Shown in pieces: positions 1-58,700 of a DNA stretch of 64,000 nucleotides (position 1 is its first letter; every line of letters starts with the position of its first letter). A program made the position numbers and the translations under genes. A model generated the notes under the pieces. It searched no databases. It saw only the letters and a program-made list of their open reading frames with translations, and was not told the DNA's origin. This DNA comes from Cheilinus undulatus (lineage: Eukaryota; Chordata; Actinopteri; Labriformes; Labridae). Location of the stretch: assembly GCF_018320785.1 (NCBI RefSeq), contig NC_054886.1:32409732-32473731 (forward strand). The letters are read 5' to 3'.

Positions 1-640
1 GTCAAAATGGGTAAAAGTGGCAGAAATCAGCTGAAGAAAGACTGAAAAGCAGTTAAAAGTGGCAAAAATGTGGTTGAAAGTGGCAGAAATAGGTTAAAGG
101 GGGCAAATATATTGTAAACATCGTGAAAATGAGTCGTAATAATGGTGAAAAGCAGTTAAAAAGTGTCAAAAAAGGGTAAAAGTGACAAAAATTGGCTGAA
201 GAAAGAGGTGAAAAGCAATTAACAGTGGCAAAATGTGGTGTAAAGTGGCAAAATTAGGTTAAAAGACAAATGGAGGGTAAGAAATGGTGAAAAGCATTTA
301 AAAGTGGAAAATATATTAAAGGTGGAAAACTGGGTTAAAATGAGCAAAAACTGGCTGAAGAAAGAGGTGAAAAGCAGTTAAAAGTGGCAAAATGTGGTTG
401 AAAGTGGCAGAAATAGGTTAAAGGAAGCATATGCGTGGTAAACATGGTGAAAATGACTTGTAAAAATGGTGAAAAGCAGTTAAAAAGTGTCAAAAAAGGG
501 TAAAACTGTCAAAAATTGGCTGAAGAAAGAGGTGAAAAGCAGTTAAGAGTGGCAAAATTTGGTTTTAAGCGGCAAAAATAGGTTTAAGGGGCAAATAGAG
601 AGTAAGAAATGGTGAAAAGCATTTAAAATGCTAGTAAATG
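1..640 (-). repeat. Degenerate minisatellite array, locus 1
   Basis: The interval is filled with imperfect repeats of the type GGTTAAAAGTGGCAAAAATG and GGTGAAAAGCAGTTAAAAG, the reverse complement of the arrays further right. A longer unit of about 360 bases is visible: the stretch GGCTGAAGAAAGAGGTGAAA recurs near 190, 352 and 518. The array runs off the left edge, so its outer boundary is unknown. No coding potential is seen. Confidence 0.85.
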
Positions 641-2420
641 TTAGTAAAATGTTGTACTTAACAAACAGTTGACTCATAATTTCAGGATACGATAAGTATT
701 TAGCATCATAAAGCACATAATTAAACCCAGAAAAATGTTTTTGTATTTAGTGATAACAGTAATTATTAAAAGGATCACATGTTCCAGTCAGTGCTGTGTA
801 ATTACAAGCAGACAGCATGCAGCCTTTGTTTACTGAGGTGAAAGGATTAGAGTCAGCAGGTCAGGCCTTAAGGAACAGGAGACGTTGTCTTTTCTCTCCT
901 CTGCTCTCTCTCTGTCTATTAACGCTGACATGTGCATTTTAATCTGATGATAAAGGGACTTAATAAAATGTATTTGCTGACTGGTGAATTAAACAGACTG
1001 TGAGAGTTAATGCTTCAACAGAAAGCAGAGCAGAAATACTCACGAGAACATCCTGCATCTTTGTAATCTTTGAAATTGTGTTAGTTAGGTTATTTACAGT
1101 GTAAATGAAACGATCAGGATATAAAATTCTCTGTCACTTTATGTGCCTCTCTCTACCTGATTGCCCAGCACTGCATTCCTGCTGCTGGAAGTTATTTTCA
1201 GCCGTTAGCCTGTGTAGAGACAATTCGACCCAAGCGGCAGGACTGTAACAAACCCTGGATTAAAAAATCATTTTCACTGATTAGTTAAATTCAGCAAAAA
1301 CATCTCATTTCTGATAATAATTCAGTTAGCTTAGACATTAAGCTCTACTTGGTAAGATCAACCTTAAATCTCTTACTAATTTAAATGTTGAGTTTAGTGT
1401 AAACTACGCCACACCTAAGACAGAACTTAAACAGAGCAACAGGCTGCTGGAGTCTGGATGATTTAGCTGATTTTCACTCATTAAGAATGTATTTTGCTAA
1501 TTTTATTCTATTTTTTCCATAATCCAACAACCCTACTGCCTGGTTGCCGGTGAAAGTGTACAATAAAACACAAACACACACACACACGACCACAAAAGTC
1601 ACTGCAAACCTGTTTGAGAAATAATACAGGGACAAATATTTACACTACAAATTCATATGACCTCTCCTCCGTCTGGCAGAAACCCTGAGGACACTAGAGG
1701 ACACACAGAGCACACAAACCTTCACTAAACACATGAATGACCTCACAGCTAAATACACATTCATTACTGACGTAATAACTTATCAAATGATATGAGACAA
1801 CTGATTCCACCAGGGATGTTCCTAGGTAATTTCATATCCGGTTAGACGCTAATCACAACTGTAGGAGCTCAGGGAAAGTTCAAGAAGGAAGACTGTTTCT
1901 ACTCATTCATTAGTCATCACACGTTCGTATCTCCTCCTCCCTCCATTCCATCTCTCTTCCTGCTCTGGTGATCAGCTGATTATGGACGTTCACTCTCAGC
2001 TAATCAGATTCTGCCACAACCTCATCCGTCCAATCATCATGCATCTGTCAGATTTAAATCTGTCATTCTCTCTGTCACAGTCAGACACTGCAACCCTCCT
2101 CCACCCCAGCCACCTCCATTCAGTTCATCTAGTCATGATCCTCACAGGTCTTCTGCTCATCTCCTCCTCCAAACCACCTCATTGGTTCCTGGTCTAGCTT
2201 CTCAGAAGTCTACTCCTCATATGATCCCTCATCAACACCACCAGTGTCCAGACCCCAGGGTGGTGGGGATGGGGGGCTATTCCTGACATTTGCCTCAACA
2301 CCCCTTCAAGTTCATGAAGTCATCAGGATGGAGTCTAATCGCCAAAGACTTTGCACATTTCTCTTTCAATAAATTTGCTAAATAAATCATTTCTATAGTC
2401 GCATCAAGTCTCTCCTGATT
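641..2420. other. No gene recognised
   Basis: No exon, RNA gene or intact transposon is supported. A short CA repeat lies near 1569-1590. The stretch 1890-2400, with an AATAAA near 2370, could be an old retroposed repeat tail, but no family is recognised. Confidence 0.5.
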
Positions 2421-2424
2421 GACA

Positions 2425-3115
2425 TGGTATAACCAAGGCCCCCATAAGGGGGGAAAAAGGGGTGAGCTTTCTGGGGCCCAGCGAAACAGGGGGCCCATGG
2501 AGGTCAGGAAAATCATGGACGATTGTAAAGTTAGTCTGTGATAACAATATTGTACATTTAACCTGAAAATTAACCACTTGAGAAAGATAAATATTTAATA
2601 AGTCTAAAGAAAAAAAAAACAATTGCAGCATTAAGGTAGAATTGGTTATAAGTGGCAAAAATGAGTGGTAGAAAAATGTTAAAAGCAGTTATAAAGAGGT
2701 AAAGAGGGTTAAAGGTGGCAAAAACGAGTGGTAGAAACAGTGAAAAGCAACTAAAAGGTGGTAAAATAAGTTTAAGGCTGCAAAAATGAGTGGCAGAAAT
2801 AGTGAAAAGCAGTTAAAAGGTGGTAAAATGGGTTTGAGGTAGCAAAAATGAATGGTAAAAATGGTGAAAAGCAGTTAAAAAAGTGGTAAAATGGGTCTGA
2901 GGTGGCAAAAATGAGTGGTAGAAATGGTGAAAATACCAAAAATATCTGGCAAAAGTATTGAAAAGGGTTTAAAGTAGAAAAAAACGGGCTAACAAAGGCA
3001 AAAAATGGGGTTACTGTGAAAACAAATTTGTGATGAGAAGGGGTTTAAAAGTGACAGAAATAAATAGTTTTAACATCAGAACCCAAAAATAGCTTGACAC
3101 ACTTTTCATCTCCAA
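2425..3115 (-). mobile_element. Array-bearing dispersed element, copy A
   Basis: Reading on the minus strand, this stretch matches the element at 39258-40345. The arm at 3062-3110 (CATCAGAACCCAA, then TTTGACACACTTTTCA-like) mirrors 39410-39440. The opposite arm at 2430-2535 (GGGGCCCA, CATGGAGGTCAGGAAA) mirrors 40270-40340. Between the arms, 2640-3060 is the TTTTTGCCACTTTTAACC-type array (locus 2). The shared arms show that the array travels as part of a repeated element. No transposase is visible and terminal inverted repeats are not clear, so the class is open. Confidence 0.65.
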
Positions 3116-3129
3116 AATAAAGTAAATGT

Positions 3130-4144
3130 AAGCCAGGGTGCCCCTGCTAATTTTTTGGGCAGACCTGGGTAAAACTATCTCTGTTTTCTGGATTAAATTA
3201 GAGCTAAGCCATGTTGTTCCTGTGAGATGCTATCGGTACTGGCAATTCACCGTTGTTTACATAAGACTAAAGCATATTTTGGCAGCCTGGGAGTGGCCAT
3301 TATTGGCAATTAAGCAGCTACTAGTGGCAAGTGGCTGCGGTACATTATTGACAGCACCACTGAGTGGAAGTTTGAGCATGAACTGGTTTAAAATATTGAG
3401 AATTAGCTTAGTCAGCTAGCGACTCTGGTGCTAACCATCATGGTACTGGATGTTTGGTTGGTCAGCTGACTTGACTGCATGCATCTTTTGACTTCACTAA
3501 TGAAAAAAAAAGATGCAGAAAAGATTATTAACCAAATTCACATGGCAACCATTTCACTCATTTCTTTTTTGAAAACTTTTAACAGAAAATTGATAAAAAC
3601 AGCCACTATAAACAATGTCAATATAAATATAGACATGCAGCCATTTTAAGTAGTGTCAGTGAGACCATCTCTAACTTTATTCATCACCATAAAGTGGTGA
3701 TCAACTCACTGAAAGCAACAATGCTCCAGAAACCACTGATGTCCTTGACTAAAAAAGATGTTTCCAATGATTATGACACTCACCAAACCACCGCTACCAC
3801 CATCGGTCCATGCTGACAGCCCCGTCACTCTTCTTAATGTGTTTTCCAAAATGCAACAGCTGATTTTTCTCCACGGAAATAAAAAAAATCTGTCTGAGGC
3901 ATTCTAATATGAAACTCAGGACCATTTCTGATCCAAATTAACAGAATAAGTGTAGGTTTGCAGAAGGAAAGATGACGAATGAGACACTAAGGCCAGCATG
4001 TCTGATCCGTGGTGGTTGAGCTCGGATAGTTTCCACACTGAGACTGAAGTCTGCTGATGGGGAGATGCTTCAGATTCTACATCACTTTGAGCTTTGCAAG
4101 TCAAGAAAATATCCTTAAACAGCTGATTCCCAACCGTGTTCAGT
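3130..4144. other. No gene recognised
   Basis: Non-coding sequence. Nothing beyond short accidental open frames is visible on either strand. Confidence 0.5.
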
Positions 4145-9069: not shown

Positions 9070-10500
9070 GGTAGGTGTCAAACTCAAGGCCTGGGGGCCA
9101 AATCTGGCCTGTGGAACGATTCTATCCGGCCCGTGAGATCATATCATATTTATATTATAACTGGCTCACCAGTATGAGATCTGCAGATTTCCTCCAGTAT
9201 AAAAATGCAAACTTCAAGTTGATGATTTAAGATATCCTTGTTAAGTCATAAGAATCTGAAAAAGTAAAGAGTAAGAAAGATTAGATAAAAAGTCAAGAAT
9301 GTGAGGGTAACAAAAAATATTTGTGTTTTTATTTTATATTTTCAATTTTTGTATCTCAAGATAACAACTTAAACTTATGATTTTGACTTTTTATTTCATG
9401 CTTTGACCTTTTTAACTCATAATTTGGACATAATATGTCAAATATTTTTCTTTTAGATTCCCGATTTTAAATTTGAAGTCATATTTTGACCTTTTCAACT
9501 CCTTTCTTTGGCTTTTATAATCAGATGTTTTGACTTTTACACACATGATTTCAATTTTTTCTCATATTTTGACATTTTAAATCATAATTTTTACTTTTTA
9601 TATCGTATTTTGACCTTTTTAACTCCCAATTTTGAATTTAAATCATATTTTAAACTATATAAGTCATAATTTTGTATTCTAGCTCATATTTTGACATTTT
9701 CAACTCCTAATTTTGTTTTGTTGATCTAATATTTGGACCAATCAGACTCACAATTTTGAATTCTAAGTCATATTTTGACCCACAAAACTCATGATTTAAA
9801 ATTTTAAGTTATATTTTGACCTACAAAACTCACAATTTTGAATTTTAAGTCATATTTTGACCTACAAAACTCACAATTTTGAATTTTAAGTCATATTTTG
9901 ACCTACAAAACTCACATTTCAAAATTTTAAGTCATATTTAGACCTACAAAACTCACAATTTAAAATTTTAAGTTATATTTTGAAATTTTTAACTCCCAAT
10001 TTTGAATTTAAATCATATTTTTTAACTTAAGGTTATCATTTTGTATTCTAGCTCATATTCTGACATTTTCAACTCCTAATTCTGTTTTTGTAATCCAATA
10101 TTGGGACCAATCAGACTCACAATTTTGAATTTTAAGTTGTATTTTGACCTTCAAAACTCATGATTTCAAATCTGATCTCATATTTTGACCTTTCAAACTT
10201 ATGATTTCAACTTTCTCCTCATATATTTGCCTTTTAAAAACATTATTTTTCTGTTTTAATATCGTGTTCTGATCTTTTGAACTAATAAATTGACATTTTT
10301 ATCTCAGATTTGAGCCTTTAAACTTATCATTTTTACTTTTTTGAATTTTCAAATGATTTATCATCAGTGCTGTTTTTATCATATTTTATTACTGGTGAAA
10401 TGAGGTTGATAGTTTTGGTAAAATGTTGACCCTGTTAGGCTCTCAGGTTAGACCTAAATCCAGAATCTGGCCCCTGCTGTGTTTGAGTTTGACACCCCTG
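9070..10500 (+). mobile_element. hAT-like non-autonomous element with AT-rich core
   Basis: The termini are inverted: GGTGTCAAACTCAAGGCC at the left, and GAGTTTGACACCCCTG at the right, whose complement is CAGGGGTGTCAAACTC. Short arms with CTGGGGGCCAAATCTGGCC and AATCTGGCCCCTGCTG are typical of teleost hAT non-autonomous elements. No transposase is present. The 8-bp flanks (about 9062-9069 and 10501-10508) match poorly, so the target duplication has decayed or the left end is misplaced by a few bases. Confidence 0.7.
9340..10340. repeat. Imperfect tandem repeats inside the hAT-like element
   Basis: The core repeats the phrase TCATATTTTGACCT followed by AACTCACAATTTTGAATTTT in many degenerate versions. 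At about 9740-9975 the unit is 40-41 bases (ATTTTGACCTACAAAACTCA then CAATTTTGAATTTTAAGTC) with several close copies. Elsewhere it decays to roughly 20-base half-units. Confidence 0.8.
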
Positions 10501-16130: not shown

Positions 16131-16631
16131 ACACCCACCTGCTAGGATGTAAGGATACACACTCATTAAACTAGGTGTGTGTGTTTGACTTCAAAGATAA
16201 ATTAATTTACTCTGTGTGTGTGCGCGCGCGCGTGTCTGCGTCTCAGCGAGTGTATGGCCTAGATAAGCTCTATACTGGTCCCTCCCTTGGCAAAAGGCTT
16301 CTCTTTCTCTCCCTGCTCTCTTATGCTCAAATAAACAGAAGTTTGGTTAATAATTGCTCTCCTTCCTTTATTAAAACATAAACTTTATCTAAACATTTTA
16401 ATACAGACATCTCTAAACTATGGTAGCCCTAAAGGACATACACTCACTTTTTATATTACTCAAGGAGCAACCTTCAAATATGGAAGTGCAAAAAACTGCA
16501 GCCAAGTCAAGAAACACACAATTTGTGGTTATAAATAATTAGACAACAGAATGACTCTGGTTAAGTCAGAAACAGAATGAAGGAGGAGCAAATTTCAATT
16601 GCTCTAATAAGTCAGGGGAACACTGAAACAA

Positions 16632-17565
16632 ATTTACTACCCTTTAAAGCCATTAAGGACAAAAATGTCCACTTCAGAAAACTGCTATAAAAACTTAACA
16701 GATTCATATTTTTTCTGCTTTTTTGCATAAATCTTTTAAACAACTTAAGCTGTGCTCAAAACTACCAAACATTCAATCATTTTGAGGATTTTAACCCTTT
16801 AAATTCCAGTTTGATTACTTAAAGTCAATGTTGTTTTTTAAGAAAAAAGCAACAAAGTGTTGTATCTTCCTCAAACCAAATGTTAGATGGCTGGGGTATT
16901 ATTTCTAAATCCGGCTTGGACATGTCCATGATTAGCCAAAATACTGACTTTGATGCATAATTAGTTTTTGTGCAGCATCTGATTTAAAATTTACTGCCCT
17001 TTTGAGTCATTAAGGACAAAAACGTCCACTTCCAAAATCAGCAATAAAAACAGTACACATTAACATTTTTTTCTGCTTTTTTTTTGGTCAAATCTTTTGA
17101 TCAACTTCAGTTCTAATTAAAACAATAGATTATTGAATTTTATTTTTTCTAAAACAACATGCAAAACAGTAATTGTTTTCCACATAGCTAATGTGGGGGG
17201 GTGGAGGGTGTTTTTTATATCAGTCCTGGGTATGTCAAAAATTAGCCAAAATATTGACTTTGATGCATTATTAGTTTTTGTGTAGCATCTGATTTAAAAT
17301 TTACCACCCTTTCAAGACACAAAAACGTCCCATTGACTCCCATTCAAACCACATTTTTTGATCCTTCAGTAATCAAACTGGCATTTAAAGGGTTAAAATC
17401 CTCAAAATGGTTACATGTTTTGTAGTTTTGAGCATAGCTGAAGTTGTTTAAACAATTTATGCAAAAAAAAGCAGATAAAAATATGAATCTGTTAAGTTTT
17501 CATAGCAGTTTTTCTGAAGTGGACATTTTTGTCCTTAATGGCTTTAAAGGGAAGTAAATTAAAGT
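16632..17565. mobile_element. Foldback element with roughly 200-bp inverted arms
   Basis: The left arm (16632-16835) and right arm (17375-17565) are inverted copies at roughly 85-90% identity. Both contain GCCATTAAGGACAAAAATG (or complement), a CAACTT...GCTCAAAACTAC segment, and TTTTAACCCTTTAAAT followed by CCAGTTTGATTAC. The loop holds a direct repeat of about 75 bases: ATTAGCCAAAATA...TTGACTTTGATGCAT near 16930, again near 17240, roughly 310 bases apart. The internal TTAACCC ends and related copy at 25692-26322 suggest a piggyBac-like MITE lineage. No transposase. Confidence 0.75.
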
Positions 17566-20460: not shown

Positions 20461-21531
20461 CAGTGGTTTTCAAAGTGTGAGGCGGGCCTCCCCTGGGGGG
20501 CGCCACAGAGCTTCAGGGGAGGCGCGGAACCATAAACCAGTAAAAAGGTGATTTGCTTTGCGAACCTCTGCTGTGCATTGAGCAAAACAGACAGACTTAT
20601 AGTTACTATAGGTACTATACTATAGAGCAGTGTTACTCAACCCTCAACCAAAGAGCAGAATTGTTGAAAAATACCTTTGCAAAAGCCACAATCTCAGATG
20701 TGAAAAGTGGCAAAAACAGCTTGAAGTAGCAATAAAAATAGGTTAAAGGTGGCAAAATGGTCAAAAATCATCAAAAAATTGGTGAAAAGGGGCAAAAATG
20801 GGGAGAAAAAGTGGAAAATTGGTCAGAAAGTAGCAGAAATTGGTGAAAAGGGACAAAAAAAATGAGTGGAAAATGACTTAAATGGGCAAAAAGCAGTCAA
20901 CAGTGGCAAAAATGGGCAAAAAAGAGGAAACAAGCAGTATGTAATGACAAAAGGTAGATGAAATGGGCAACAAGTAGCAAAAAAAATTGTGCAAAAGGGC
21001 AAAAATGGCAAAAAGAAGAGGCAAAAATTGGAAAAAAGGAAATAAGTGGTATTTAATGGCAAAAGATAGCTTAAATGGACAAAAAGTGGCAAAAAAAATG
21101 GTTAAAAAAAACGGGGCAAAAAATGGGATAAAAGTGGCAAAAATTGAAAAAAGAGATATTTATTGATGAAAGATAGCTTAAATGGGCAAAAAGGTGAAAG
21201 GGCAAAAATGGGATAAAGTGAAAAAAAGGGGTGAAAGTGGCAAAAAGAAGTTGTAAAATGACCAAAAAAAAAAAAAACCATGAAAAAGAGGTATTTAATG
21301 GCATTATAACTGAATAAGAGGGAAAGGCAGATGTTTAAGGACACTTGCAAACCAAAATATCCAAAATATATTAATGTTAAAATGATTGAATATTAGACAT
21401 AAATATTTGAAATGTTGTTGTTTCTTTTTTTTTTTTTTTTTCAATTTGAATCCTTTTTGTGGGTGGGGGCCCACCGAATGAATAATTTCTTCTTAGGGGA
21501 GGCTCACTCTCCCACACTTTGAAAACCCATG
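20461..21531. mobile_element. hAT-type element carrying minisatellite locus 3
   Basis: The left end is CAGTGGTTTTCAAAGTGTG. The right end is CACACTTTGAAAACCCATG, inverted with three mismatches. The 8-base flanks TTCTAGAA (20453-20460) and TTCTAGAC (21532-21539) match at seven positions and fit the hAT nTnnnnAn preference. Nested within, at 20628-20700, is the terminus of another family (CAGTGTTACTCAACCCTCAA, CCTTTGCAAAAGCCACAA). From 20695 to 21310 the minus-oriented TGGCAAAAATGGG-type array fills the interior. No transposase. Confidence 0.85.
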
Positions 21532-22440: not shown

Positions 22441-22444
22441 GCAC

Positions 22445-22533
22445 ATTTTCTGAATTTAGTCAAGTTTCTGGGGGCCAGATGGGAAGCTGTGGGGGGCCAC
22501 AGGGCCTCCAGTTGATAATCAGTGGTCTAGGCA
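22445..22533 (+). mobile_element. Solo terminus of a hAT-like family
   Basis: The arm TTTCTGGGGGCCAGATGGGA, AGCTGTGGGGGGCC, CTCCAGTTGATAATCAGTGG matches the right arm of the element ending near 58530 (GGGGCCGGACAGGAAGCTTT, GGGCCGCCAGTTGATGATAG). Only this end is present, so it is a truncated relic. Confidence 0.6.
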
Positions 22534-39085: not shown

Positions 39086-42000
39086 TCACGTATAAGGATA
39101 CACTCTGCAGTGCTCCATCTCCATGATGACAGCGGTGGATGTCTGCCTGCTTCTCTTGGCTTGCTGGACTGTAAAAGATAGAAAAACGGCAGAAAATATT
39201 CTTAAAGAGACATTTCACTAATTAATTATGTATTTCCTCTTCATCTTTAGTTTTTTCAGACCGGCCCACAGTCTAGGCTGGGCCCCTGGCCACTCCAGAG
39301 AGGGCCCTCCCCAGCTGTGATTTACTGATGATATCAGTCCATGTGTGTTGAAGCAGTAGCATTGGTGCTAGCATCCTGGCTAACTGTTTCCTCGTTTTGT
39401 ACCTGAAAAGTGAGTCAAACTATTATTGGGTTCTGATGTTGAAATTAGTTATCCCATCCCTCAAGTTTTTCCACATTTTCCCACTTTTTCCCCTCAAATT
39501 TCCCCATTCTTTATCTTTCTTGACTCATTTTTGCCACTTTAAGCTCATTTACCACTTTTGAGCCACTTTTAACCATTTTCCCACCCATTTTTGCCCTCTT
39601 TATGCCTTTCTTGACCCATTTTTGCCTCTATTTAGCATTTTTTTTCTTCTTTTTAACTGCTTTTCACCACCCCTTCCCTTTATTTACCACTTTTTGCCTT
39701 ACCTGACCAATTTTTGCCTCTGTTAACCAATTTTTCAAACTTTCTAACAAATTTCCAAAAATTTCCAACCTACTTTTGCCCCTGGTGCCTTTCTTGACCA
39801 ATATTTCCATTTTTTTAATCCCATTTCAGCCATTTTTAACCACTTTCCAGCATGTTACTTTCCATTTTTTCATTTCTTGACCAATTTTTGCCCCTTTAAA
39901 CCAATTTTCCCTTTACTTCATTTTGCTAAATGTCTTTTATAGGTTCTCCTCTTACTTAATCTTATAATTATATTGTATTATTCTTCTGCTCTGTAGCACT
40001 TTTAGATTGTTGAAATGTAGAGTGCAATACAAATAAAATTTATTATCATTATTATTATTTTTTGGCATCCTTACCTCCCAAATATTTTAGTCAACTGACC
40101 TCCTGCACATTTGTAACATTAGCAAAAACAAAAAGGTAATTTTGGTTTAAAGAAAGGATTTGCAATTTTAATTAGGCTATACTACACTACAGCAATTAGT
40201 AGTTCATTTTTTTGTTGCTTTGATAAGAGTTTTTATTATTTGGGTTAAAAATAAAATATGGTTAGCAAAGCTGAACTTTACAACTGACCATGATTTCCTG
40301 ACTTCCATGGGCCCCGGAAAGCTCTCCCCTCTATCCCCTTCACTGACGGACTTGCCCTCAATTTGTATCAAATTTATTACATTGAGAATGTCTGTGACCA
40401 AAAATGTCAGCATACAAAAACAACAACAAGAATATTATAAATTAAGGTTTTAATTTTAAATCAATGCTTCTTTTGCATTTATTTTTAAAATCAAGATTAC
40501 ATTTGATCATAAATATCAGATATTGATTATTTTTGGAAAATTTAACCCCTAAATTGTCAGTTTAAGACAAAATCCTGATGTTCATAATGTAAAGACACAA
40601 AGATTAATTATTTCCCATACACTGCATGGCAGTTAGCTTTCCTTGAAGGGGGTTATCACAGCCTTACAAGTGTTAATAATGAGCAACAACTTGATTTTCA
40701 AGCATTATTATGTTTTCAATTCAAGATTTTATTAATTTGTTACACTCAGCCAGTTTGTGACCAAAAATGGATGCCACGACCAAATAGTATTAAAAAATAC
40801 TATACATTTATAAAATGTTTTTAAAATCAGGATCAGACCTGATCATATATAGAATTATATAGAATTAACTTTTTGGAATTTAACCATTCAGTTTCCAGTT
40901 AAAGTGCTGAAAATCCTGATTTTTGTCAAGAAAAAAGAAGCCCCCCCCATCCTTATAATACATGCAAATCTTATTTCCTTGAAGGGCATCATCATAGACT
41001 GGATCAGTTAATAATTAGTAACAACTTTGATCTTTATGTAGTATTACTTTTTGGAATCTTAAGATTTGAATAAATTGATATAATAGTAACTTTATAAACC
41101 AGGAAAAAGCATGACTTTTCCTCTAATGCCAAATATGTAAAAAGGGCTGACATTTGGTGACTTACAGGAAAAAACTATAAACTTGTAGCAATGACTCCTG
41201 AGATAATTATTGACCTGTAACAGGTTCTGGTATTCGAATTTTAAAATTCTTAATTAAAACAACGGAAAAAAAAAAACAAAAGAAAAAAATGACCAAAAAG
41301 CTGTGAAAAGCGCTCAACACCCTCCGTGGGTTAACCTTTATGACCAAAGACAGAACGGCTGGGAAAATTTAGCTCTCAACTCTTGAAGAGAATGAAATGA
41401 ACGTCTCTACTTGAGCTCTTATGCCTGTAAGCTACATTAAACAAAGCTACATCAGTGTCTTTTGTAATGCAGTTATTCTCACCTTTCCTCCTGTCTCTGC
41501 AGATCAGTCCCAGTAAAATGGTAGACAACAGGAAAGGACTTCCAACCAACAGGTGGCGCAGCAGAGTGAAGACAGACAGCAGGTGGGCTGCAGAACCGCG
41601 GCCTACAGAGGGCGTTGTGGAGACATCAGTGGGAGAGCCTGTTTGGGTTAACATAGAAAGCTGATATCATAAAATTTAAATGTTTCCTCCAGGCTTATAT
41701 AGAGTAGAAAGGCCAGTGTAGCTGTGCTTTAAATTACCACCTATTCACCCTTGCAAGGTTAAAGGATTGGCCAGATTCCACGTCTGTCATCAGGCAGATC
41801 ACTCTTTGAAGCTGATTCGCTTGTTCTCCGTTCAGAGAATGACCGAGCCAATTGGTGGCATTTAAGGAGAAAGAGGTGGTAGCCAAGGGCGTTTTTTTGT
41901 TTTTGTTTTTTTTTTCTATGATTGAAAATAACCTGGTGAAATAACTCTGGTTTCAGAAGGCACAACTATCAACAATAACTGAGTCCTTACCTCTGACAGT

Positions 42001-45000
42001 CAGCTTGCTCTCTGGTGACTTATCAGACCCAAAGATTCCACACTTGTACTGTCCTTCATCAGACGTGGAAACTTTGAAGAGAGTTATGTTTCCTGTGTAG
42101 CTGCCACCAAAAATATTGCCGTCTCTGTAGAATGCAGTATAGATGGCCCAGCCGGACGTGTGACTCTGAAGTCTACATCTCAAAACCACATCATCACCCT
42201 CTGTCACAGGAAGTCCAGGTATCTCTAGGACCACGGGACCAGCTGAAGACAAAGTACATACATGACATAGAATTTTCTCGTACCGTATCTGATTAAAATT
42301 AATTTCATACAGGCATTGATTTCTTTCTGTGTTATTTATGCATATTTGTTATTTAGTATAACAACTGTGTATATTTTATCCCTGTGTTACAAGTGGGTGG
42401 TAAGCCCCAAAGAAGCAATAAATTATAAATTTTGTGGCTTATGAAAATATAAATGAAATGTTTGCCAAACATCACACCAAGAAAAAAAAAGTCATCACAT
42501 ATAAGTTGAAAATTACTAAAAAATATGAAGATGGGCCATTTTTCCTCTTGCCTATTTTAAAACCAGTGGATTGATTGATATGTCAAGGACTGAGCCAGGT
42601 TTTGTGCTAGCTAAGCTTCAAGTTGTAACAGTGCAAACATTAGCTTGAAAAATGCTACTTGCTAGCATTAACTAGAAAAGTCTACAAAAAGTCTGGTTTC
42701 TAAAACTGTAATTTGAAAGTCATAATGTAATTTTAAAAAGAGAAAAAAGGAAAAACGGGCCAACACAAGCAGGATGTTTGGCTCAAATCTACTTGTTTTT
42801 GTATGCTAAAGTTAGCTTGTTTGCTAAATAATTCTTATCCAGCTAATATAGCTAGAATTGGTCAGTACGTCTCAAATTGCATACACTTGTTAGTATACTG
42901 TATTCTAGTACACTTGAATGCAGTATGGAGCATTAAATCCCAACAGGTTTTGACTGAAGACAGTTTAACTGCCATTGTTTAGGGTTAGGGTTACTTCTAT
43001 GACAGCAGATGACTAACAGATGATTTCTATCTAAATTTGGTGGCTATTTTTACTCAGTATTGATTTCATGTAACTTGTATTTTATGTTTCCATTATTTTC
43101 TTCAATAAAACGAACTTATTCAGTCTCAAATGCCCTTTTCTTGATTGAAACGTGCTGTAGTTGCTAATAACATGTCAGCTAGCTAGCGGATGCTATCGTT
43201 AGCTAGCGCGCTAGCATGCTAACAGTAAAGTCTCCATTATGGCGTTAATTTGAGTTAGTTTTCCAATGTGAACGCACTAAACTCACTTATGTGCTCTAGG
43301 TTTTTTAGTGTTTAGAAAAGACATGCAGTTTGGGACACTAGGTGGTAACACCAGCTAATTAATCGAGCCTCCTGAAGCTGCTAGTTGGCTAGCTTACAAA
43401 TTAGCATTTGAAAATAATTCAGTCAAGCATAGCTAATTTACAGCTAGCCGAACTTGCTCTTTCATTATTTATCTCTTATGTTTAATATTGTCTGATGGTG
43501 GCTTGCTAGTTAGCTAGCTTGCTAGTTAGTCTAACAAGATAATAATTTTTAAGGATAAATTTAGTACATTAAAGCCAATAAAACAACATCTTCTGTCATA
43601 AATGAAGATGAAAACTGATGTTTCTTGCAATAAACATTAAATTCCACATATCAAGTGTACACAAACTGTAAAATCCTAAAATCTAAACAAAGAAAGTCTT
43701 AAAATGCCAAACATTCAATTTTCAGTTAAATTAACAGACTTAAAACAGAGAAACACCTACTGGGGAGCTGTGGGACTTAAACTATTGCACATATATTTAT
43801 ATATTTCTTTAGCAATGATTTTGTTAAATCTAATGACATTTTTAAAGCAATTGCAGTTACCTTCTTTAATTGAGCAGTTGCTACTAAAACACCACACTAG
43901 GAACTTCTATGTATTCTACCCCATTAGAATACATTTATATTGAGATGGTAATTACTTTTATTTGTATGCATTGTTGAGTTTTAAGTATTTTAACCTATTA
44001 AAGCCTGAAAACACAAATTATAGCCAGAAAATTATCTTTCTTTTTGGAACTGAAATGTTTATTTCACTTTCTACTGAAATTCCAAAAAGTCTAATTTTCC
44101 AAAAAATTTAACATATATATTTTTTGTATCTCATTTGATACATTAGGTGTTTTTGGTAACTGATAATCCACTTGAGGGCTTTTTTTTAAATCATTTATCA
44201 GATTGTATTCAGAATTTTTGGGGGTAATTTATTGATCCTATTGATGAGATAGAGGTAGACTTTAAGGGGTTAAAGGCCCAGCTAGACCTGAATTGCAAAT
44301 CAGATGGAGTCAAGAGTTTACCTTCTTCAGAGTTTTCCCTATACAAATTAGCATTGGACAAATAAAAATGAAATATTCATTCCCTATATTTGAGAGCTTT
44401 TAACTGAGTAAGTGTTTCAAACCCACAGCCTACCAGTGACAGTGATGTTGAAGCTGTTGCTGGTTGCTCCATGTTGATTTCCACACCAGTACTCTCCACT
44501 GTCAGTGGCTGGATATGCAGCAGAAATGGAGCAGGAGGACGCGCACTGACTCACCTGTGGGGGAACATGCCAACAGAAAAAAGGGAAAACTCTACTGACA
44601 GGTAAAGGTACAGATTCACCATTTTACACAGAGGTCATTTATTAGGGGTATGCTTGGATGCTAAAATGTTTTACTAATGTGCTCTATTGGTAATAAAAAA
44701 ACTGATATTCAGACACTTCTATCTAGCGGGATGAAATCAACCTATAATTGCATTTCATGTTTGAAGAAAATCCCCATCACATACAGTAAATAAGTCTGAT
44801 GGATCTGGACAAACCTCTCCATCATCAGTCCTCTTCATCACTGTCCATGTGGTCCCTGGTTCCTCCTCGTCTTCCTCACAGCTCACAGAGAAACTTTCAC
44901 GTTTAAAGAACTGAGATCGATTTGGAGAGAGCGTGACAGAGACTGGAGGAGGGAGAAGCATGCGTGAGGGATGAGAGAGAGCTAAAACAACTCATGTTTA

Positions 45001-47394: not shown

Positions 47395-49090
47395 ACTCAG
47401 CCTACCCACAGAATTGGCTGAGCCCTGAATAACTCAGTAAATGAGCCTTCCTCAGCTGTGATTCATTGATGATATCAAAGTGTGTGTTGGATGAACAGCA
47501 GTGGTTCTGGCATTCTTTATCTCATTCTGGATCATTGGAGAAGTGTCAACCTCTTTCAAACCCATTGCGCCAACTTAAACTAATTTTGCCTGTTTTCAAC
47601 CATTTTTAACCTCTTTTAGCCCAATGTTTTTACCACTTTTAACCCATTTTCACCACATTTTTGACCCCGTCACCACGTTTCCTTCCCATTTCTGACAATT
47701 TTAATCCATATTTGCCACTTTGAACCGATTTTGCCTCTTTTAACCCATTTTGGACACTATTGGACCCCTTTTTAAAAAGTTTTTCCTTTTGCACTTTCAG
47801 CCCCATTTTTACCTTTTTAAATCCTAGTTTTACTCTTTTAAGCAACTTTTGCATATTTTAACCCCCCCCCCTTTTTTTTACCTCTTTTAACCCATTTCTG
47901 AATCATTTTCAATCCATTCTCACCATTTTGACACCTTTCACCACCTTTTCCTTCCTATTTCTGTCAATTTTAATCCATATTTGCCACTTTGAACAGATTT
48001 TGCCTCTTTTAACCCATTTTGGACACTTTTTGACCCTTTTTAAAAAGTTTTTCCTTTCGTATTTTAACCCTGTTTTTACCTTTTCTTTAATCCTAGTTTG
48101 CCTCTTTGTACTACTTTTGTACATTTTAAATCTTATTTTCCCCCTCTTTTATCCCATACTTGCTTCGTTGAACTGATTTTGCCTTGTTCAACCCATTTTG
48201 GACGCTTTTTTTTTTTTTTTAACAGTATTTCCTTTTGCACTTTTAATCCCATTTTTACCTTTTTAAATCCTGGTTAGCCTCTTTTAACCAACTTTTGCAC
48301 ATTTTCAACCATTTTTTCAACTTATTTCTGAACCGCTTTCAATCCATTCTCACCATTTCAGACCCCTTTCACCACTTTTCCCCACCTATTTCTGTCACTT
48401 TCAACCCATATCTACCCATAGAAACCAATTTTGTTACATTTAACTCATTTTAAATAATTTTTTAAACCCTCTTTAGAAATATTTAACCTCTTTTTACCAC
48501 TTTTCCACTGCTTTTTCTGCCCCCTTTGCCTTCTTAACCCATTTTGCCACTTGAAATCAACTTTTGCCCATTTTTAACCATTTATACTGCTTATAAACCA
48601 TTATTTGGGAAATTTTTTAAACATATTTGCTTAATTTTTCCTGCCCCTTTGCTCCCTTTGCCTGTTTTAATCTAATTTCAATTTTTTTTTGCCAATTTTC
48701 ACTAATTTCTACTCCTATTAACCCATTCTTTTTGGCTGTTTTTAACCCATTTCCACTTCTTCCACCACATTTAACCCATATTCGCCACTTTAATTTAGCC
48801 ACAGTTGGTTCAGTTTGCCTCTTTTAACCCATTTTGAACACTTTTTGACCCCCTTTAAACATTTTTTCCTGCCCCATTTTACCCCTTTTAACCAATTTTT
48901 GGCCACTTTCAACCTATTTTCACAAAGTTTGACCTCTTATTCCACCTTTTCATCCCATTTCTGCCCCTTTTAACCCATTTTCACAATTTTTCGACCCCTA
49001 TTGCCACCCTTTCATCCAATTTCTGCTCCTTTTAACCCATTCTGGGCATTTTTTACAGTTACTTAAGCATTTTTCCATCAAAGTTGTCTC
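47395..49090 (+). mobile_element. Array-bearing dispersed element, copy C (largest array)
   Basis: The left arm (CCTCAGCTGTGATTCATTGA, TGATATCAAAGTGTGTGTTG) matches copy B at 39310-39350. It is followed by locus 6, about 1.55 kb of TTTTAACCCATTTTGG and TTTTTACCACTTTTAACCC units (47530-49080). Larger internal duplications are visible: AATCCATATTTGCCACTTTG at 47703 and 47972 (269 apart), and AATCCATTCTCACCATTT at 47911 and 48341 (430 apart). No right arm was recognised. It lies between the receptor start and the INPP4-like start. Confidence 0.7.
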
Positions 49091-49751: not shown

Positions 49752-52700
49752 ATGGTCTCCAGGCAAAACAAACTGCGGTTGGAAGAGTTGAATTTGATCC
49801 CAGAAGCGTGCTCTCCTTGCCGGTAAGGGATGCGAATAACACTGTTTTAAAGATTTATATGTAATTTAGAATAGTTTCGTTCATATAAAGTCGATTTTGC
49901 AAGTTAACGGTTACTTTCTGAAACGCTCGTGCCAACATATCGGTCTGAGTGCTGCCGACCATCATGACAGGACAATCGCAGTTACGTCACACCGTCTGTC
50001 TTTAAGCTAACTAATGAGTCAACGGCTGATTTTCATTTTCCTATCTGCACGTTTTTATTGTCACTAAACTGTCAAAAATTTGTTTTAAGAGAAAAGTATT
50101 CATTTCTTAGCCGTTTAAATATGAATAGATTCGTATTTTGCTTGTAGTTCGAAAAAAGTCTTGTAATTTTTTGATAAAGATGCTTTAAATATTAGTAAGA
50201 GGCTAAAAAATCTTTAGTTGCTCTGGTTTATTTGTGTTGTTATCCATGTTTGATCAAGATTTTCTCTCGTTTAGGCAGTGATGAGGACCAGACCAGGATG
50301 ATGCAGGTGGACATGGAGGTGATGTGACAGGAGGATGAAGATGAGGAGGATGAAGCTAAGGGTGAACAACAAACAGCTGCAGTTTCTGTCCAGAGAAGAA
50401 ACATGCGGAAGCTTCCAGAAAGAAGGAAAGCTACGAATAGGACGGCAGGACAGAGGTTGTATACGGCCCTGTTGAATTATTCTGTTCTTTTCTGCACAGT
50501 TGAGGTCTTTTGTTCTTTTATATCCTCTTTCTTTATCTTTGTTTTCCTCTGACTGATGTCGTTCTCATATTTTCTGTTCTTGTTGAATCATGGTTCCACT
50601 GTGGTTCCACAGCATCTATTTCCACTGCTTGACTCAGCGTGACTTTACTTCCTGAAAGGTTGTGTGACAGTTTAAAGTAGAATCACTCTGACACCACTTT
50701 TATTTACACACCATGTGTCTGCTAGGCTGAGCTATCAGTGGCGCCGATTTTTCCCTCATGTTTGCACCATAACACAACACAGGTGTTTAAACTGGCAGAG
50801 TTACACCAGTCATAGTATTAAATCTGGTTTACTGCCCACCATGTTTGGATCAAGTGTGTAAATCATCATCACCTGGAATAGAAATTGACATTTAACTTAT
50901 TTGAATACTTTTTTGGCCATTTTAATCTGTCTTCATCACTTGTTTAACCCATTTTCAGCACATTTCTGCCACTTTTAAGCAAGTTTTGCCACAATTAACC
51001 CATTTCTTTGCCCATATTTGACATCTTGATACACCATTGCACCATTTTTCCTGCACCCTATAGCAATTTTGCCACTTGAAACCCCATTCTTACCCCATTG
51101 TAACCCATTTTTGCCAATTGCCACCCATTTTTACCTCTTTTTTTGCCATTTCTGCTACATTTAACCCATTTTTGCTTTTCTTAACCCATTTTTGGACCCT
51201 GTTTACTATTTTTCCTACCACCTCTGCTTTTTTACACTCACTTTGTCACCTTCAACTATTTTACTATGTGTCACACTAACCCAAAAATCAAAACTGGGAG
51301 TTTTTCATCACTCTGTAACCCCTATTCACCACTTTTCTGCCACTTGTTACCCATTTTTACCCCTTTAATCCAATTGTTGGAAACTTTTTTACCCCTTTCA
51401 ACATTTTTCCTGCCCCCTTTGCCAGTTTTAATCCATTTCTACCAAATTGTCTTTTCCTGTTCTTTTCTCACTTTCAAGCTATGGTCACCACTTTTCAACT
51501 ACTTTTCTCCTATTTCTACCACATTTAACCCATTGTTTGCCTCTGTTAAAAATTTTGCTACATTCAACCCACTTGTGGACTCATTTTGAACATTTTTTGC
51601 CCCCCTTTGCCCTTTTTTGAAATTTTAACTCCCCCATTTTTATTTATTTTAACAGATTTTTTTTTTACCAATTTCAACCTCCATTAACCCATTTTTTTGT
51701 TCTCTTTCAACCCATTTTCACCACTTTTTCTTCCCATTTCTGCCCAATTTAACCCATTTTTGCTTTCTTAACCCATTTTTGGACACATTTTGACCCCTTT
51801 TACCATATTTCCTGGCAGCTTTGCCTCTTTTCAACTCACTTTGTCACCTTTAACTAATTTTTAATTATCATTTAACAAACTAAACCAAAACTGGGAGGTT
51901 TCATCACTTTGTAACCCCTCATTGCCATTTTTTTTCCTGCCACTTTTTACCCATTTTTACCACTTTAATCCAATTTTGGCGCTCTTTTACTCCTTACACC
52001 ATTTGTCCTGACCCTTTTGCCACTTTTAACCAATTTTTGCCAAATTGTCACCCTTTTTTTTTACCTCTTTTACTTGTTTTTTGCCCACTTTCAACCCATG
52101 TTCACCACTTTCACCCCCTTTCACCACTTTTTCTTCCCATTTTTATCATATTTAACCATTTTTACCTCTGCGAAGGAGGATATGTGATCGGCTGTGTTTG
52201 TATATTAGTTTGTTTGTTAGCAACATAAGTCCCCCCTGCTCTTTTCACCTTTAATCCCATTTTTACATATTCTATTTTTTTTGGTGAATTGTCACCAGTT
52301 TTACTCACATTAACCCATTCTTCAGCCCCTTTCAACCCATTTTCACTAGGGCTGAACGATTTTGGAAAATAATCTAATTGCAATTTTTTTTACCCAATAT
52401 TGCAAGTGCAATTTGAAATGCGATTATTCCTTAATTCCTTGTCTTACGTATTTTTTATTTGTGATGATCTTGACTCGTATTGAAAACTAGATATGAATTG
52501 ATGTATTGCCATTTTCATATTTAATACAAAAATTGTAGAAAAATGAAGGACGTAGGATTTTTTCTGTAGACTATTCTAAAAAAACGCACTTGAATGATTG
52601 CATAATTATGTAGTGCATAACGTCTCTGCTGCAAAAAAAGTATTACACTGGTATTTTGATATAAATTTAATGTTAAAGAAATATTGCACCTTTTGCGATT

Positions 52701-55700
52701 TGATAATTGCAGCAGGCCATATTGCAATTTGATCTAATTTTTGATTAATTGGCCAGCCCTAATTTTCACCACTTTGCCTCTTCTAACCCATTTTGGACAC
52801 CCTTTGACCCCTTTTACCATTTCCCTGCTCCCTTTCCCCTTGTAAACACATTTTGTCATTGTAAACAAATTTTAAACAATCAGTTAAACCAGCAAACACA
52901 GAACTGAAAACTGGGAATAGTAGATCTTACAGTGGATAAGAAAGTATCTGTGTCCAAGCTGAAGTCATAGTCATAATTTCGTGTTTATTTAGCAAGTTTT
53001 TCTTCCAAACAAACTGCCGTTCTTTCATCTACTCCTGCCTTCCTGGTAGAAGAAACATTCCTTTTTCATAGAGCCTGCCCGTCCTAGCTAACCTGCCATA
53101 ATATCAGTGTCACCCAGTGCCAGTATGACCAATTCTATTAAAATAGAAGCACTGATAAATACTGAAATACTCCAAAAATAACACAGGTGATATCAAAATT
53201 GTTAACTAAAAATGAGTAAAGTGTGAAATGATGAAATTCCACACAACAAAGCAAATGGCTCGAACACCACCCTCCTTGTTCTGAGTGAAATTTAAATCTG
53301 AAAGGTCATGTTCTCTCACTATCTGGCGAGTTTACATGACACATTTATTGGTGGCCTTGCTAATTGGTCAAAACCTGTCTTGAATTCTTGCTTCACATTT
53401 GTTTAAGGGGAGGAGGATGTGCTACTGTGTTCATTCTGTAAACAAACATTTTGTCAGCGTGGATAAATTGAGTCAACGGCCTAAGTGGTAAACATATCAA
53501 CCTGTTTGACGATGTCTCACAAGGATAACAACTTGATGAATGAAGACAAAAGGATTATGGCTGCGAGTTGCGTTCTTGCTTCTTTTATCTGCTCTATCTC
53601 AAGGTCCAGTTTACGAAACACATGGCTGTAATCATCCTCAATCACTAACACTCCGATGAAGTTTATTTTGCCATCTTTAATACACTTAAGTTATGGCAGA
53701 GTGTTGTGTAATTCTGTTCTTTTTTTTCCTGTGTGTGCAAAAAAAAAACAAAAAAAAAAAACAAGAATGGTTTAGACACCTCTGATACATTACGGGTACA
53801 TCCCACGCCTCTTAAGCCTGCCACACACAAATATTTTTAAAACCTTAACTGATTTTTTCCAGTGTGAGACCCCACACGTGGAGTGTGTGGTGTAGAACCA
53901 GAGGATCAACTCTAACCACACACTAACAGATTCGGTTCAGACTATCAGAGTCAGCCTCATCTTTCCAAAAACAGCTCGAGTTTTCAAACGTGACTCAAGA
54001 GTGAGGAAGCTACTGTGGTTAGCTGTTAGCTACATGTAACGTCTGTTGTGGTTGCCTTTTCGGTTCAGCTCTGCCTCTTGTCAGTTCGTCTGTGGTCTCT
54101 TTTACAGTACGTACTGTTAAACACTCGTGTTGTTGCTGCCTTCTCTGACGTCTATCCGACTTCATCATGTGTCTGCTGGGCTGTCAGTGCTCACCACACT
54201 TGACAGGAGTTTTGGTTGAGTTGGAGCACCTCTCGACAGATGTCACACCACAGGATAATCTGGAAAGATGATTTTAAGAACCATCTAATAATCTGACCTT
54301 TGCTGACTTTGGTTGGAAGGTGGGATTCAGGCTGACAGCACGATTCTCTCGTAGTGTGTAGCCCACTTTAAGTTGCATCTATGCATCCACTACTTGAGTC
54401 TTTTCTTTAGAGCAGTGGTTCTCAGGGTTGAGGTTGGGACCCCATTCAGGGTCGCGAGACACTGAGAGGGGGTCTCCAGATGCCTTAAAGAAACTAAGAC
54501 CATTTTTAAATTACACTGTTGCCACTTACACCAATGCTGCCCAATTTAAACCCGTTTTTAATCATTTTTCCCACCAATTTTAACACATTTTTGCAACTTA
54601 AAACCCACTTTTTTTGGGTCAATTTAAAACCCTTTCCACCACTTTATTCTGCCTGTTTTTGCCACTTCTAAACCAAATCTTGCCACTCTCTGCCTATTGT
54701 TGGCTCTGTTGACACATTATTGACACTATTAACCCCGTTTACCACTCTTTAGCCACATTTCACAATTTGATACACCCATTTTTGCCAGTTTATATCAATT
54801 TTCAGCCGAAATTTCCCCCATTTTTGCAGCTTTAATGCCATTTCCTCCACTTTTGAATCCCTTTTTACCATGTAATATGCCCATTTTGCCACTATAACCC
54901 ATTTTTGCCATTTTTTTTTTGGTTTTTGTTTTGCCACTTGTATCTAATTTTTGACATTTCTAACTCATTTCTGCTACTTTTAAAATCGAATTTCACCACC
55001 TTTCCCCCCATTTTTGCCATAATTTATTTATTTATTTTGGGCATTTTTGTGCCTTTATTTGATAGAAGAGGACAGTGGATGGAGTCGGAGGCAGGGATGA
55101 GGCATGCGGTGAGGGGCCTCAGGCCTGATTCGAACCCGGGCCATCCATGTACATGGGGCGCGCGCCTTAACCACTCAGCCACCTGCGCCCCATTTTTTTG
55201 CCATTATTGACCCATTTTAGCTATTTTTAACATATTTTAATTCTGTTTTGAACAAAAGGATTTACATTTTAAAGAGGGCTTCTTACCATGCAAATGAATT
55301 AAAATGTGTTTCTTTGATAAGAGTGGTTGTTATTAGGTTAAATATAAAATACCACAGCTAAACTTTGCAATGGACCAGGATTTTGCTGGGCCTTTGGCTG
55401 GGCCATTTCCCCCCCTAATGGGTGATCTTGTTTCCACATGACTATTCTTGAATGTGCATGGCTTGTTCAACCACCTTCAGGTACAGTGGGGGTCCCCGGT
55501 CTCTGGAACCTTTATTTTGGGGGTCGTGGGCTGAAGAGGTTGAGAACTCCTGCCTTAGAGAAAAGTACAACCAGGGACAGAGATCATTAAAGAGACTGTA
55601 GATTTACTCTACATGTGTGGAGAATGTTTCTGAATTTTGTCTCCTGTGTGTCAGATCTGACTGAACGGTTCTGTCGGCTCAGAGGAAACCTTCTCTTCAT

Positions 55701-58700
55701 CCTGAAAGAACAGGTGAGAGAAACAGAGAAAAGAGGAGAAAGTCGTCCTTATTCTGTTTATTAGATGTATAAAGCTACTGTCTGTGTGTGCAGGGTGGTA
55801 AACTAGAGGAGGTGCTGCTGTTGGAGAGATGTGAGGTGATGAAGTTTCCAGGCGACGACACACAACTGGCTGTCAGTGAGTAACACACACTCAAACACAA
55901 CCTTACTGTGTGAACACAGCATTAAAACATGTTTCTGTTTCCAGCCTTCGACAGCGGGGATCCTCCAGTGTTCCTTCGGTGCAGCAGTCCCTCTGAGTGT
56001 ATTTCATGGCTACACATCCTTAAAAATGCCAACACTGACTCGCTGAGGAAGCGCATCACACATCTACGCACGCTCATTAACATGCACACACATCAACACA
56101 ACAACACAGCTAAAAGTCTGGGAGACGCTGGAGCTGCAGGTACGTGTGCTTGAATTTCTAGAAGTTTACAAAAACTGTTGATTGAAATTCATCCTCATAA
56201 ACAAGCTTGATTGCATAACCTGATGTGACAACAGATTTTTTCTAGTTAAACACTGTAAAACACAGACAATCATAAGTGAAATGTTGCAACATGCATAGGG
56301 AACAATTTGGGAAAATAATCAAATTGTAATTTTTTTCCCCAAATATTACGATTATTCCTGAGGTTCCTCATCTTATGCATTTTCCAACAAACCCAAGCAA
56401 TAAATCATTCTTTATTGTAACCAACACAATATCAGATTAAACAAGGGCTGAACAATTTTGAAAAAAAAAAAAACCTGATGATTTTGAAAATATCGGATCA
56501 TATCGGATATGAATTGTTGTATTGAAGGACATGAGAAGTTTTGTCATTTTCATATTAGATAAGAAAAAAGTTAAAAAAAAATGAAGAAAGTAGGATTTTT
56601 TTGTAGACTTTTCTAAAAAAACGGCTCTGCTGCAAAAACTTGTAACCTCACACATTTCAGGCTACAGAAATATTGAACCTTCTGTGATTTGAAAAATGCA
56701 ACAGGCGATGTTTTCAATTTATTCTAATTTTGGATTAATTGCCAGCCCTACCCCCCACCTACCCACATGCAGTGTAATTCTGCTGAAAACACTAAAATAT
56801 ATCCGTCTTACATGTTTTTAAAGCTTATGGTGCTGTTTTAAAAGGGTATTTCAGTATTTTTGAAGTTGAGTTATATGAGATATACCTCCAGTGATTTCAG
56901 TGAGCATTGCTCCTTTAAGAGGCTAACAGATGGGTACAGTTTCTCCCTGGAATTTAGTGAACTTTTGGTTAAAAGTGGGCCACGAAACAGTGTTGGCGTA
57001 AACTATGTACTGTCAAAATTTTTTTGAAGCATTTTATTTTACACCCAGAAAGCCTCTGTGTTTTTGTCACCATGTTGTATTGCAAAAGCACGTAAGCCAA
57101 AGCCTGCATTGCAAAATAGTGATAAAAACATGCATCAGCGCTTCAAAAGTTTTCAGTAGTGCATAGGTTTAAGCCAACATTGTTTTGTGGCCCATTTTTA
57201 ACAAAAACTCGCTAAATTCGTCCAGGAAGCTAGGCTGGACAGCATTACAGATGGGTACAGTTTCTCCCTGGCTACAGGTTACATGCTCTTGCATTACAAA
57301 ATAGTGACAAAAACACAGAGGCTTTCTGGACAGACGCTTTCTGTAAAATAAAATGCTTCAGAAAATGTTGACAGTACGTAGTTTTAAGCCAACACTGTTT
57401 TATGGCCAACTTTTTACCAAAAGCTCACTAAATTCTAGGGAGAAGCTATACCCATCTGCTAGCTGTATAGCAGGGGTCGTCAAGAACCTTTGCACAAGGG
57501 CCAGATTTAGTCTCGACAGAAACTCTGGGGGCCGGACTTTTAAATACACAAAAATTAAATATATAGTTTGGTCTGGATAACATATTATTGTAGTAGTATT
57601 TGTATCCTCTTTAGGACACGTTCAATCGTTACCAGTGAGATCTATCTCTATTATCTATGATGTAGCAGGCCACAAGGAGACAGACCAGACAGCAGAGTTG
57701 GCCAGGCCCCTGAAAATCCTAGAGAATGGGCACCACTACTAACTCATTTTAACCCCTTTCTGCCTCTTTAACCCAATTTTTGCCATTCTTTAACCCATTT
57801 AAACAACTTTCCTGCATGTTTTATCCCCTCTGTGCCATTCTTATCCATTTTTGCCACTTTTCACCCATATTTGACACTCTTCAACCCCTTTTTGCAACTT
57901 TCTTGTGTGCCACTCTTGAACAACTTTTTACTGATTTGCCAGGCTATTTTTTTGCTGTATTTTTGCCACTTATAACCCATTTTTGATACTTTTTGCCCCT
58001 TTTTGCTTCCTTAATCCAATTTTTGCCATTCTTTATCCTATTCAAACCACTTTTCCCACATGTTTTATCCCCTTTGTGCCACTATTTTATCAATTTATGC
58101 CATTTTTCATCTATTTTTGCCCATTTTAAACCCATGTTCATTACTTTTTTGAACTAATTTCATAATTTCTAACCAATTCATAATACTTTTTGTCCCCTTT
58201 TCCCTCTTTAACCAATTTTTGACACATTTTAACTTCTTTTAAACACTTTATCTGGTCATTTTTGCAGCACTTCTGCCAACCTTAACACTATTTTTAAATA
58301 TCTACTAATTATGACAATAAATTTCTGTAAAATAGATCAAATGTTAAGTCTAAAACTATTTCAATATTAATTGTTTGTGGGATGGATTTAATAGCTGCAG
58401 ACATTTAAAGGATACTCTTAAAAGAACATCATCTTCCTCTCCTCCTTTTCTGAATTTAATGATCTTTCAGGGGCCGGACAGGAAGCTTTGGGGGGCCTGA
58501 TATGGCCCCCGGGCCGCCAGTTGATGATAGCCTAGCTAGTCCTTCTTAAAGGAGCAGTGCTCACTGAAATCACTGGAGACTAAAGCCTTTTTCAAAACAA
58601 GACTAGGTTAAGAACTAGTACATGGCTGACCGCATCTATCTGGATACCTGTTGTAACACCGGACAAGGGAGAGGAGTAGCTCCGCCTCCTCCCCCGAACA

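Follow-up and report, generated by a model that had tools for sequence, protein, structure and literature searches.

A 20-bp minisatellite of Cheilinus undulatus very probably dispersed as an internal part of short hAT-like transposons

We analyzed a 64,000-bp stretch of the Cheilinus undulatus genome (NCBI RefSeq assembly GCF_018320785.1, contig NC_054886.1, positions 32,409,732 to 32,473,731; hereafter the window), in which an original prediction had noted one minisatellite motif recurring at nine loci. Our results make it very likely that this 20-letter repeat recurs genome-wide as an internal part of short hAT-type transposons that dispersed it. The arrays are associated with transposon ends in a fixed orientation, their order is common within transposon families, and they are dispersed throughout the genome. 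The carriers would be short (approximately 0.6 to 1.6 kb between termini), apparently non-coding DNA transposons with a transposase presumably supplied from elsewhere, and each transposition would move the whole array as one piece, leaving an 8-bp target duplication. The same array motif appears to be common to four or more families whose ends differ (X, Y, Z, and V/W).

All nine predicted arrays were recovered: every one of the 39 matches to the noted word (up to 3 mismatches) lay inside them, with 0.08 matches expected from shuffled sequence (largest 1). Their strands were also as described, minus in the first three intervals and plus in the remaining six, and this orientation reflects the insertion orientation of the carriers. 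Consensus units derived de novo from each array, unseeded by the noted word, were rotations of one unit with periods of 19 to 21, rather than unrelated sequences. Array bases aligned to the 20-letter consensus are 75 to 80% identical to it, and the median monomer length is 20 to 21. The 20-bp unit resembles a doubled decamer, with 12/20 identities when shifted against itself by 10; a shift of 9 also gives 12/20, and the T runs bring a shift of 1 to 11. Array sequence amounts to 6,609 bp, or 10.3% of the window (excluding a nested insert in a7), in line with the predicted tenth, and the list of nine lacked a related array at 9369 to 10239, described below. The nine arrays are as follows:

1 to 640, minus strand: array a1, cut by the window start, with no recognised transposon end in the available flank
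2635 to 3060, minus strand: array a2, with a 62-bp higher-order repeat
20695 to 21310, minus strand: array a3, from word matches and de novo consensus
33690 to 34165, plus strand: array a4, from word matches and de novo consensus
39460 to 39935, plus strand: array a5, from word matches and de novo consensus
47530 to 49080, plus strand: array a6, with an approximately 271-bp higher-order repeat
50900 to 52870, plus strand: array a7, with no recognised carrier end and containing a nested hAT-like element
54530 to 55260, plus strand: array a8, split by a tRNA-like short interspersed element (SINE) at approximately 55024 to 55191
57735 to 58290, plus strand: array a9, with an approximately 243-bp higher-order repeat

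The hAT-like element nested in a7 (52347 to 52761, plus strand, 415 bp) has ends TAGGGCTG (also given as TAGGGCTGAACG)..CAGCCCTA and is surrounded by an exact 8-bp duplication, ATTTTCAC; a7 therefore predates that insertion. The SINE in a8 has box-A- and box-B-like motifs by reading of the letters, and ARAGORN called no tRNA in its region.

Putative carrier elements, or single ends, were placed around seven of the arrays:

2434 to 3300, minus strand: X-family hAT-like element with a2, right terminus at 2434, left end approximate (inner part alone matched)
20461 to 21531, minus strand: W element with a3, inverted termini CATGGGTTTTCAAAGTGTG / CACACTTTGAAAACCACTG, duplication GTCTAGAA/TTCTAGAA (7/8), V-family right part inside
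33531 to 34270, plus strand: V-family element with a4, left terminus CAGTGATACTCGGCG, right end approximate
39257 to 40354, plus strand: X-family element with a5, from end-profile matches
47398, plus strand: X-family left terminus beside a6, from the end profile; no right X-family end was found for this array
54413 to 55552, plus strand: Y element with a8, termini CAGTGGTTCTCA / ..TTGAGAACTCCTG, duplication CTTTAGAG/CCTTAGAG (7/8), X-family right end inside
57471 to 58530, plus strand: Z element with a9, inserted in one palindrome arm, duplication 2/8 at the named end and 5/8 at best

The W and Y elements were located by scanning for a duplication together with inverted ends, so the duplications at a3 and a8 are not independent evidence. 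For a9, an uninterrupted paralogous site is available in the other arm of the palindrome (56840 to 57110, reverse complement), which matches the left flank at 81.5% over 195 columns and the right flank at 97% over 35 bp. The two flanks are one base apart in this arm and approximately 1.08 kb apart at a9. The palindrome that holds the Z element is itself long and imperfect (56922 to 57463), with arms approximately 83% identical.

Beyond the window, we took an 8-kb locus around each of the first 20 exact matches listed on one contig and detected 29 arrays in these 20 loci. Among 38 arrays, flanks of up to 400 bp from different loci matched on the same side and in the same orientation in 124 array pairs and otherwise in 2, and shuffled flanks gave none; at 900 bp, the counts were 129 and 17. 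The homology mostly ends within approximately 400 bp of the array, at termini starting CAG or similar, and we named the families by these ends: X (CAGGCCTGCCCACAG..), Y (CAGTGGTTCTCA..), Z (CAGGGGTCATCAAG..), V (CAGTGATACTC..), and W (CAGTGGTTTTCAAAGTGTG). Because these flanks also supplied the end profiles (both W profiles from a3 alone, the Y left profile from a8 alone), recurrence of the ends across loci is the informative part.

Searching out to 900 bp, we recognised ends on both sides of 18 arrays, on one side of 13, and on neither side of 5. These 36 arrays are the 27 first-motif arrays of the sample plus the nine in the window, excluding two arrays of a second motif (L013); they are a minimum, as the detector reported a6 and a7 as one array and overlooked at least one other, in the L012 Y element. 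The most distant ends were 829 bp (L023), 600 bp (L027), and, across the next array, 635 bp (L025_3252) away. Ends bounding an array have one orientation relative to it, and the unit order of arrays follows transposon family and is shared within families. For five end matches, no array was detected within 900 bp: the L012 Y right end, where the array was missed; an X right end in L019, 76 bp from the locus end; an X left end in L028 (E 8.5e-6); and a Z right end in the window (22404 to 22538) and a V left end in L026, both of which look like lone ends.

We also approached the association from the transposon side by fetching Z right ends. Out of 2,283 first-look candidates, 40 were scored, ranked by likeness to the array-bearing L017 copy, and eight were taken. 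All eight carry an array on the expected strand, with scores of 130 to 510 against at most 36 for shuffled sequence, and all their unit matches at up to 5 mismatches lie on that strand. Array scores on the opposite strand reached 191 in L065, from a nested element of the T family described below, and 94 in L063. The Z-element arrays of L064 and L068 are each split by an unrelated insert, closely similar in the two loci (AATAATAAT..GAATTTATATAGC..).

Target duplications were scored at the named ends of the 21 elements with both termini placed. Agreement was 7-8/8 in 11 and 6/8 in three (L027, L030, L066), and when the left end was moved by 9 to 40 bases as a control, 0 of 1,344 comparisons reached 7/8. 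When the right end was free to move by as many as 3 bases, only the L014 Z element reached 7/8, with a right end two bases shorter, and the control then rose to 0.22%. Such 8-bp duplications are those of non-autonomous hAT elements. The W, Y, and Z termini also form the short inverted repeats starting CA(G) of this superfamily; these are weaker in X (CAGGCCTGCCCA / CAAGGCCGCCCA, by reading) and in V. Buster-type hAT duplications have the form nnnTAnnn, according to excerpts of PMC3517528. Of the Y, Z, and W elements whose copies agree at 6/8 or better at the named ends, the central TA is present in the right copy in 11/11 and in the left copy in 10/11, the exception being L027 (GTTTTCAT). X elements with at least 6/8 agreement have nnnTAnnn in 0/3 cases (TCCATCCA, CTGACAGA, ATAGACAA), so we do not file X as Buster. 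The array lies within the element and is copied along with it, as in other transposon-borne minisatellites.

The genome contains at least 150 matches to the Pfam domain Dimer_Tnp_hAT. Among 30 hAT transposase loci (approximately 3.2 kb each; queried with all ends but W left), one Y end (L041) and a 28-bp match to a V end (L055, E 7e-4) were found; no locus clearly had these ends as its own, and none held an array. L041 was rejected as an autonomous partner of Y, as a different hAT sits inside the Y element there. This other element (approximately 726 to 3048, with similar copies in L040, L042, and L056) has a Pfam hAT dimerisation domain, and its copies are 93 to 98% identical. Because no transposase with these ends was found, our assignment of the carriers to hAT, which is probable, draws on their ends and duplications.

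Several elements are composites of two families. In three Z elements (L062, L066, L067), the left 80 to 90 bp or so of X lies between the Z end and the array, beginning 8 to 12 bp outside the X terminus by profile, and L014_3786 has a similar X piece beginning approximately 12 bp inside the terminus. An X right part lies inside the Y end in the Y elements of a8 and L015_2471, and the L012 Y element holds an inner X left piece (by profile) and an X right end (by reading the letters). L012_4924 and L014_6549 both combine a V left end with an inner W right part; from this pairing, the W element of a3 seems to hold a V right part. Most simply, the composites would arise when one element inserts inside another and one inner end is then lost, leaving the outer transposon to carry the array; in this way the module may pass between families.

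The array missing from the predicted list belongs to a second motif, which we call T. It and its element are placed as follows:

9369 to 10239, plus strand: related 21-bp array (fam2), unit TTTTGACATTTTAACTCATAA, from de novo consensus
9074 to 10500, minus strand: T-family hAT-like element with this array, terminus CAGGGGTGTCAAA at 10500, other end at approximately 9074

T copies with the 21-bp array also occur in L013 and L065, and the orientation of the array relative to the T ends is identical in the 4 copies where both are readable. Genome-wide, the T unit has 3,299 and 3,209 matches versus 166 and 129 for the control. The unit aligns to the first motif with a score of 10, against a mean of 1.6 for letter-shuffled units, and 0 of 1,000 shuffles did as well. 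By reading of the letters, first-motif and T arrays are oppositely oriented relative to Z and T ends that look homologous, and the two motifs may be related either by common descent or by convergence. A third 20-bp minisatellite, CAGAATTCTGACTTTAATCT, occupies two blocks at 35915 to 37474; in letter shuffles its unit is similar to the T motif (P = 0.001) and not significantly to the first motif (P = 0.234), and no carrier was identified for it.

Across the 46 contigs of the 1.17-Gb genome, the exact first-motif unit has 705 and 718 occurrences on the two strands, and the reversed word has 0 and 0. At up to 3 mismatches, the counts are 56,612 and 57,017, an approximately 50:50 split, versus 967 and 1,025 for the reversed-word control, leaving an excess of 111,637 matches. 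Multiplying this excess by the 169 bp of array per match seen in this one window extrapolates, very roughly, to 19 Mb of array DNA or 1.6% of the genome. The match density in the window (39 per 64 kb) is approximately 6 times the genome average.

Several observations weigh against dispersal by transposons. The 20 loci are the first listed matches on a single contig rather than a random sample, and the eight Z ends come from the 40 closest to one array-bearing copy. Five of the 36 arrays lack a recognised carrier end (L012_7189, L029, L031_2239, a1, a7), with a1 and L012_7189 truncated in part where the examined sequence ends. Three end matches are oppositely oriented, two of them in L015, where Y and Z elements sit head to head; an opposite W right-part match in L026 (3873 to 3946, E 6e-08, 112 bp from the array) is unexplained. 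Only 10 of 104 X-family array pairs share unit order, duplications agree at no more than 5/8 in seven of the 21 elements (L014 Z, L015 Z, L016 Z, a9, L028 X, and both V), and the 30 transposase loci yielded no clear owner of these ends.

The arrays might also contribute to transposition. In a dinucleotide wedge model, which gave the expected result for a phased A-tract control, curvature beyond that of dinucleotide-preserving shuffles is predicted for each of the nine window arrays and for the T array (end-to-end z of −5.0 to −13.9), and much more weakly for the third motif (z = −2.3). At the other loci, z is below −3 in 27/27 arrays of at least 200 bp (25 first motif, two T motif), with a mean relative end-to-end distance of 0.758 (0.66 to 0.85) versus 0.939 in 600-bp controls from the same loci. 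The window arrays have relative distances of 0.70 to 0.81, and neutral decay simulated from the consensus gives means of 0.826 to 0.847. Units retain the consensus at 0.896 of T-tract positions and 0.699 of A positions (0.908 and 0.610 in the 27 first-motif arrays outside the window), whereas the T minus A difference is −0.03 to −0.055 in a strand-symmetric decay simulation aligned alike. Genome-level strand bias is an unlikely cause of T retention because half of the insertions are on each strand; ancestral unit variation, or slippage of T runs unlike that simulated, could produce it. In five arrays, sampling from the observed position frequencies yielded approximately their observed curvature; the predicted curvature is thus a consequence of the conserved T-tracts and adds no evidence of its own. 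We tentatively propose, as a rather unlikely possibility, that the array would serve the transposons as a functional component and not travel as a passenger. Its phased T-tracts would give an intrinsic curvature kept by selection in active elements, and the module would have been passed between, or have arisen convergently in, five or more hAT-like families, since a bent interior may help the ends meet or set chromatin.

A second functional reading, compatible with dispersal by transposons and which we consider doubtful, is that the arrays offer the transposon repeated binding sites for transposase. Excerpts of PMC10368747 state that Hermes BED domains bind 5'-AAG(T/C), the repeat having earlier been thought to be GTGGC. 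The reverse complement of the unit has AAAAGTGGC, which contains both Hermes motifs (AAGT and the older GTGGC), and by reading of the letters V-family ends bear GTGGCTCTT repeats. However, other parts of the unit are better kept than the AAGT core, with the G of AAAGT kept at approximately 65%, the T-family consensus is without the core, and the Hermes site may not apply to these elements.

The original prediction held that the motif must spread by transposition, recombination, or both. Transposition is borne out by shared flanks that stop at transposon termini with 8-bp target duplications and by the array order inherited within families; recombination gains a secondary indication only, from the X-family ends inside Z and Y elements and from higher-order repeats specific to single loci. 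After insertion, arrays would change locally by duplication of multi-unit blocks, with expansion probably by slippage or unequal exchange, and then decay. It is very improbable that recombination, gene conversion, or reinsertion of circular DNA between loci accounts for most of the spread, with the adjoining transposons coincidental. Such a scheme could draw on the same composites and higher-order repeats and on the unit order shared in 11 of 268 between-family pairs, but the flank homology is one-sided, one-oriented, and bounded by the termini and their duplications, unit order tracks the transposon family, and Z ends chosen regardless of arrays bear them in 8/8 cases. There is likewise very little chance that the motif arose independently many times from an AT-rich predisposition, by slippage on T-rich DNA: although the apparently opposite T motif may be one convergent pair, the reversed exact word has 0 matches against 1,423, and shared unit order and flanks reject repeated origin, which the prediction had already thought unlikely, for copies within one family.

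Helitrons make no target duplication and have no inverted termini, so the duplications and inverted termini here rule out a Helitron-borne tandem repeat. A bacterial or viral source was also rejected. One viral stretch and two bacterial ones each contain the exact word a single time, which we took as chance; the viral stretch and one of the bacterial stretches hold no second match at up to 3 mismatches. Elsewhere in the window, an inverted repeat at 16631 to 17560 (arms 92%) may be a foldback element or a miniature inverted-repeat transposable element (MITE), and a minus-strand open frame at 41953 to 42348 has immunoglobulin-like matches below curated cut-offs.

Dispersal by transposons would explain a tenth of the window and, by extrapolation, very roughly 1 to 2% of the genome as the cargo of a few short hAT-like families. 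One minisatellite is common to several of them, and the composites suggest a route of cargo transfer. If the curvature is indeed selected, tandem arrays that lie within MITEs would be functional components of these elements, not passengers. Searches by unit letters and topic terms, over titles and the starts of abstracts with few subscription journals covered, found no published account of this unit or case, and the portion of a Sparus myostatin paper available (PMC3045353) holds nothing of this kind. Minisatellites inside MITEs and other transposons are already known, as excerpts of two reviews indicate (PMC6947457, PMC9659126). One in Porphyromonas gingivalis (PMC4596501, in part) likewise lies inside a MITE and differs in being bacterial. 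Mar, a Buster-type hAT MITE of Drosophila, is similarly short and non-coding with an 8-bp nnnTAnnn duplication, and its termini start CAGRGG (PMC3517528, in excerpt); it differs in that its text mentions no internal minisatellite, the word "tandem" being absent. Tetris of Drosophila virilis (PMC4079207), judging by its title and word counts, is also a DNA transposon with internal tandem repeats, but it is a foldback element said to have supplied satellite DNA units, whereas here the elements are hAT-like and the arrays dispersed. The closest parallels, going by titles and a table in PMC6947457, are Xstir of Xenopus (Hikosaka and Kawahara 2004), rice transposon minisatellites (Inukai 2004), and the insect (GTCY)n MITEs (Coates 2011), in which transposons likewise disperse a tandem array. 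In contrast to these, the C. undulatus motif occurs in several families with different ends and in approximately 111,600 excess unit matches.

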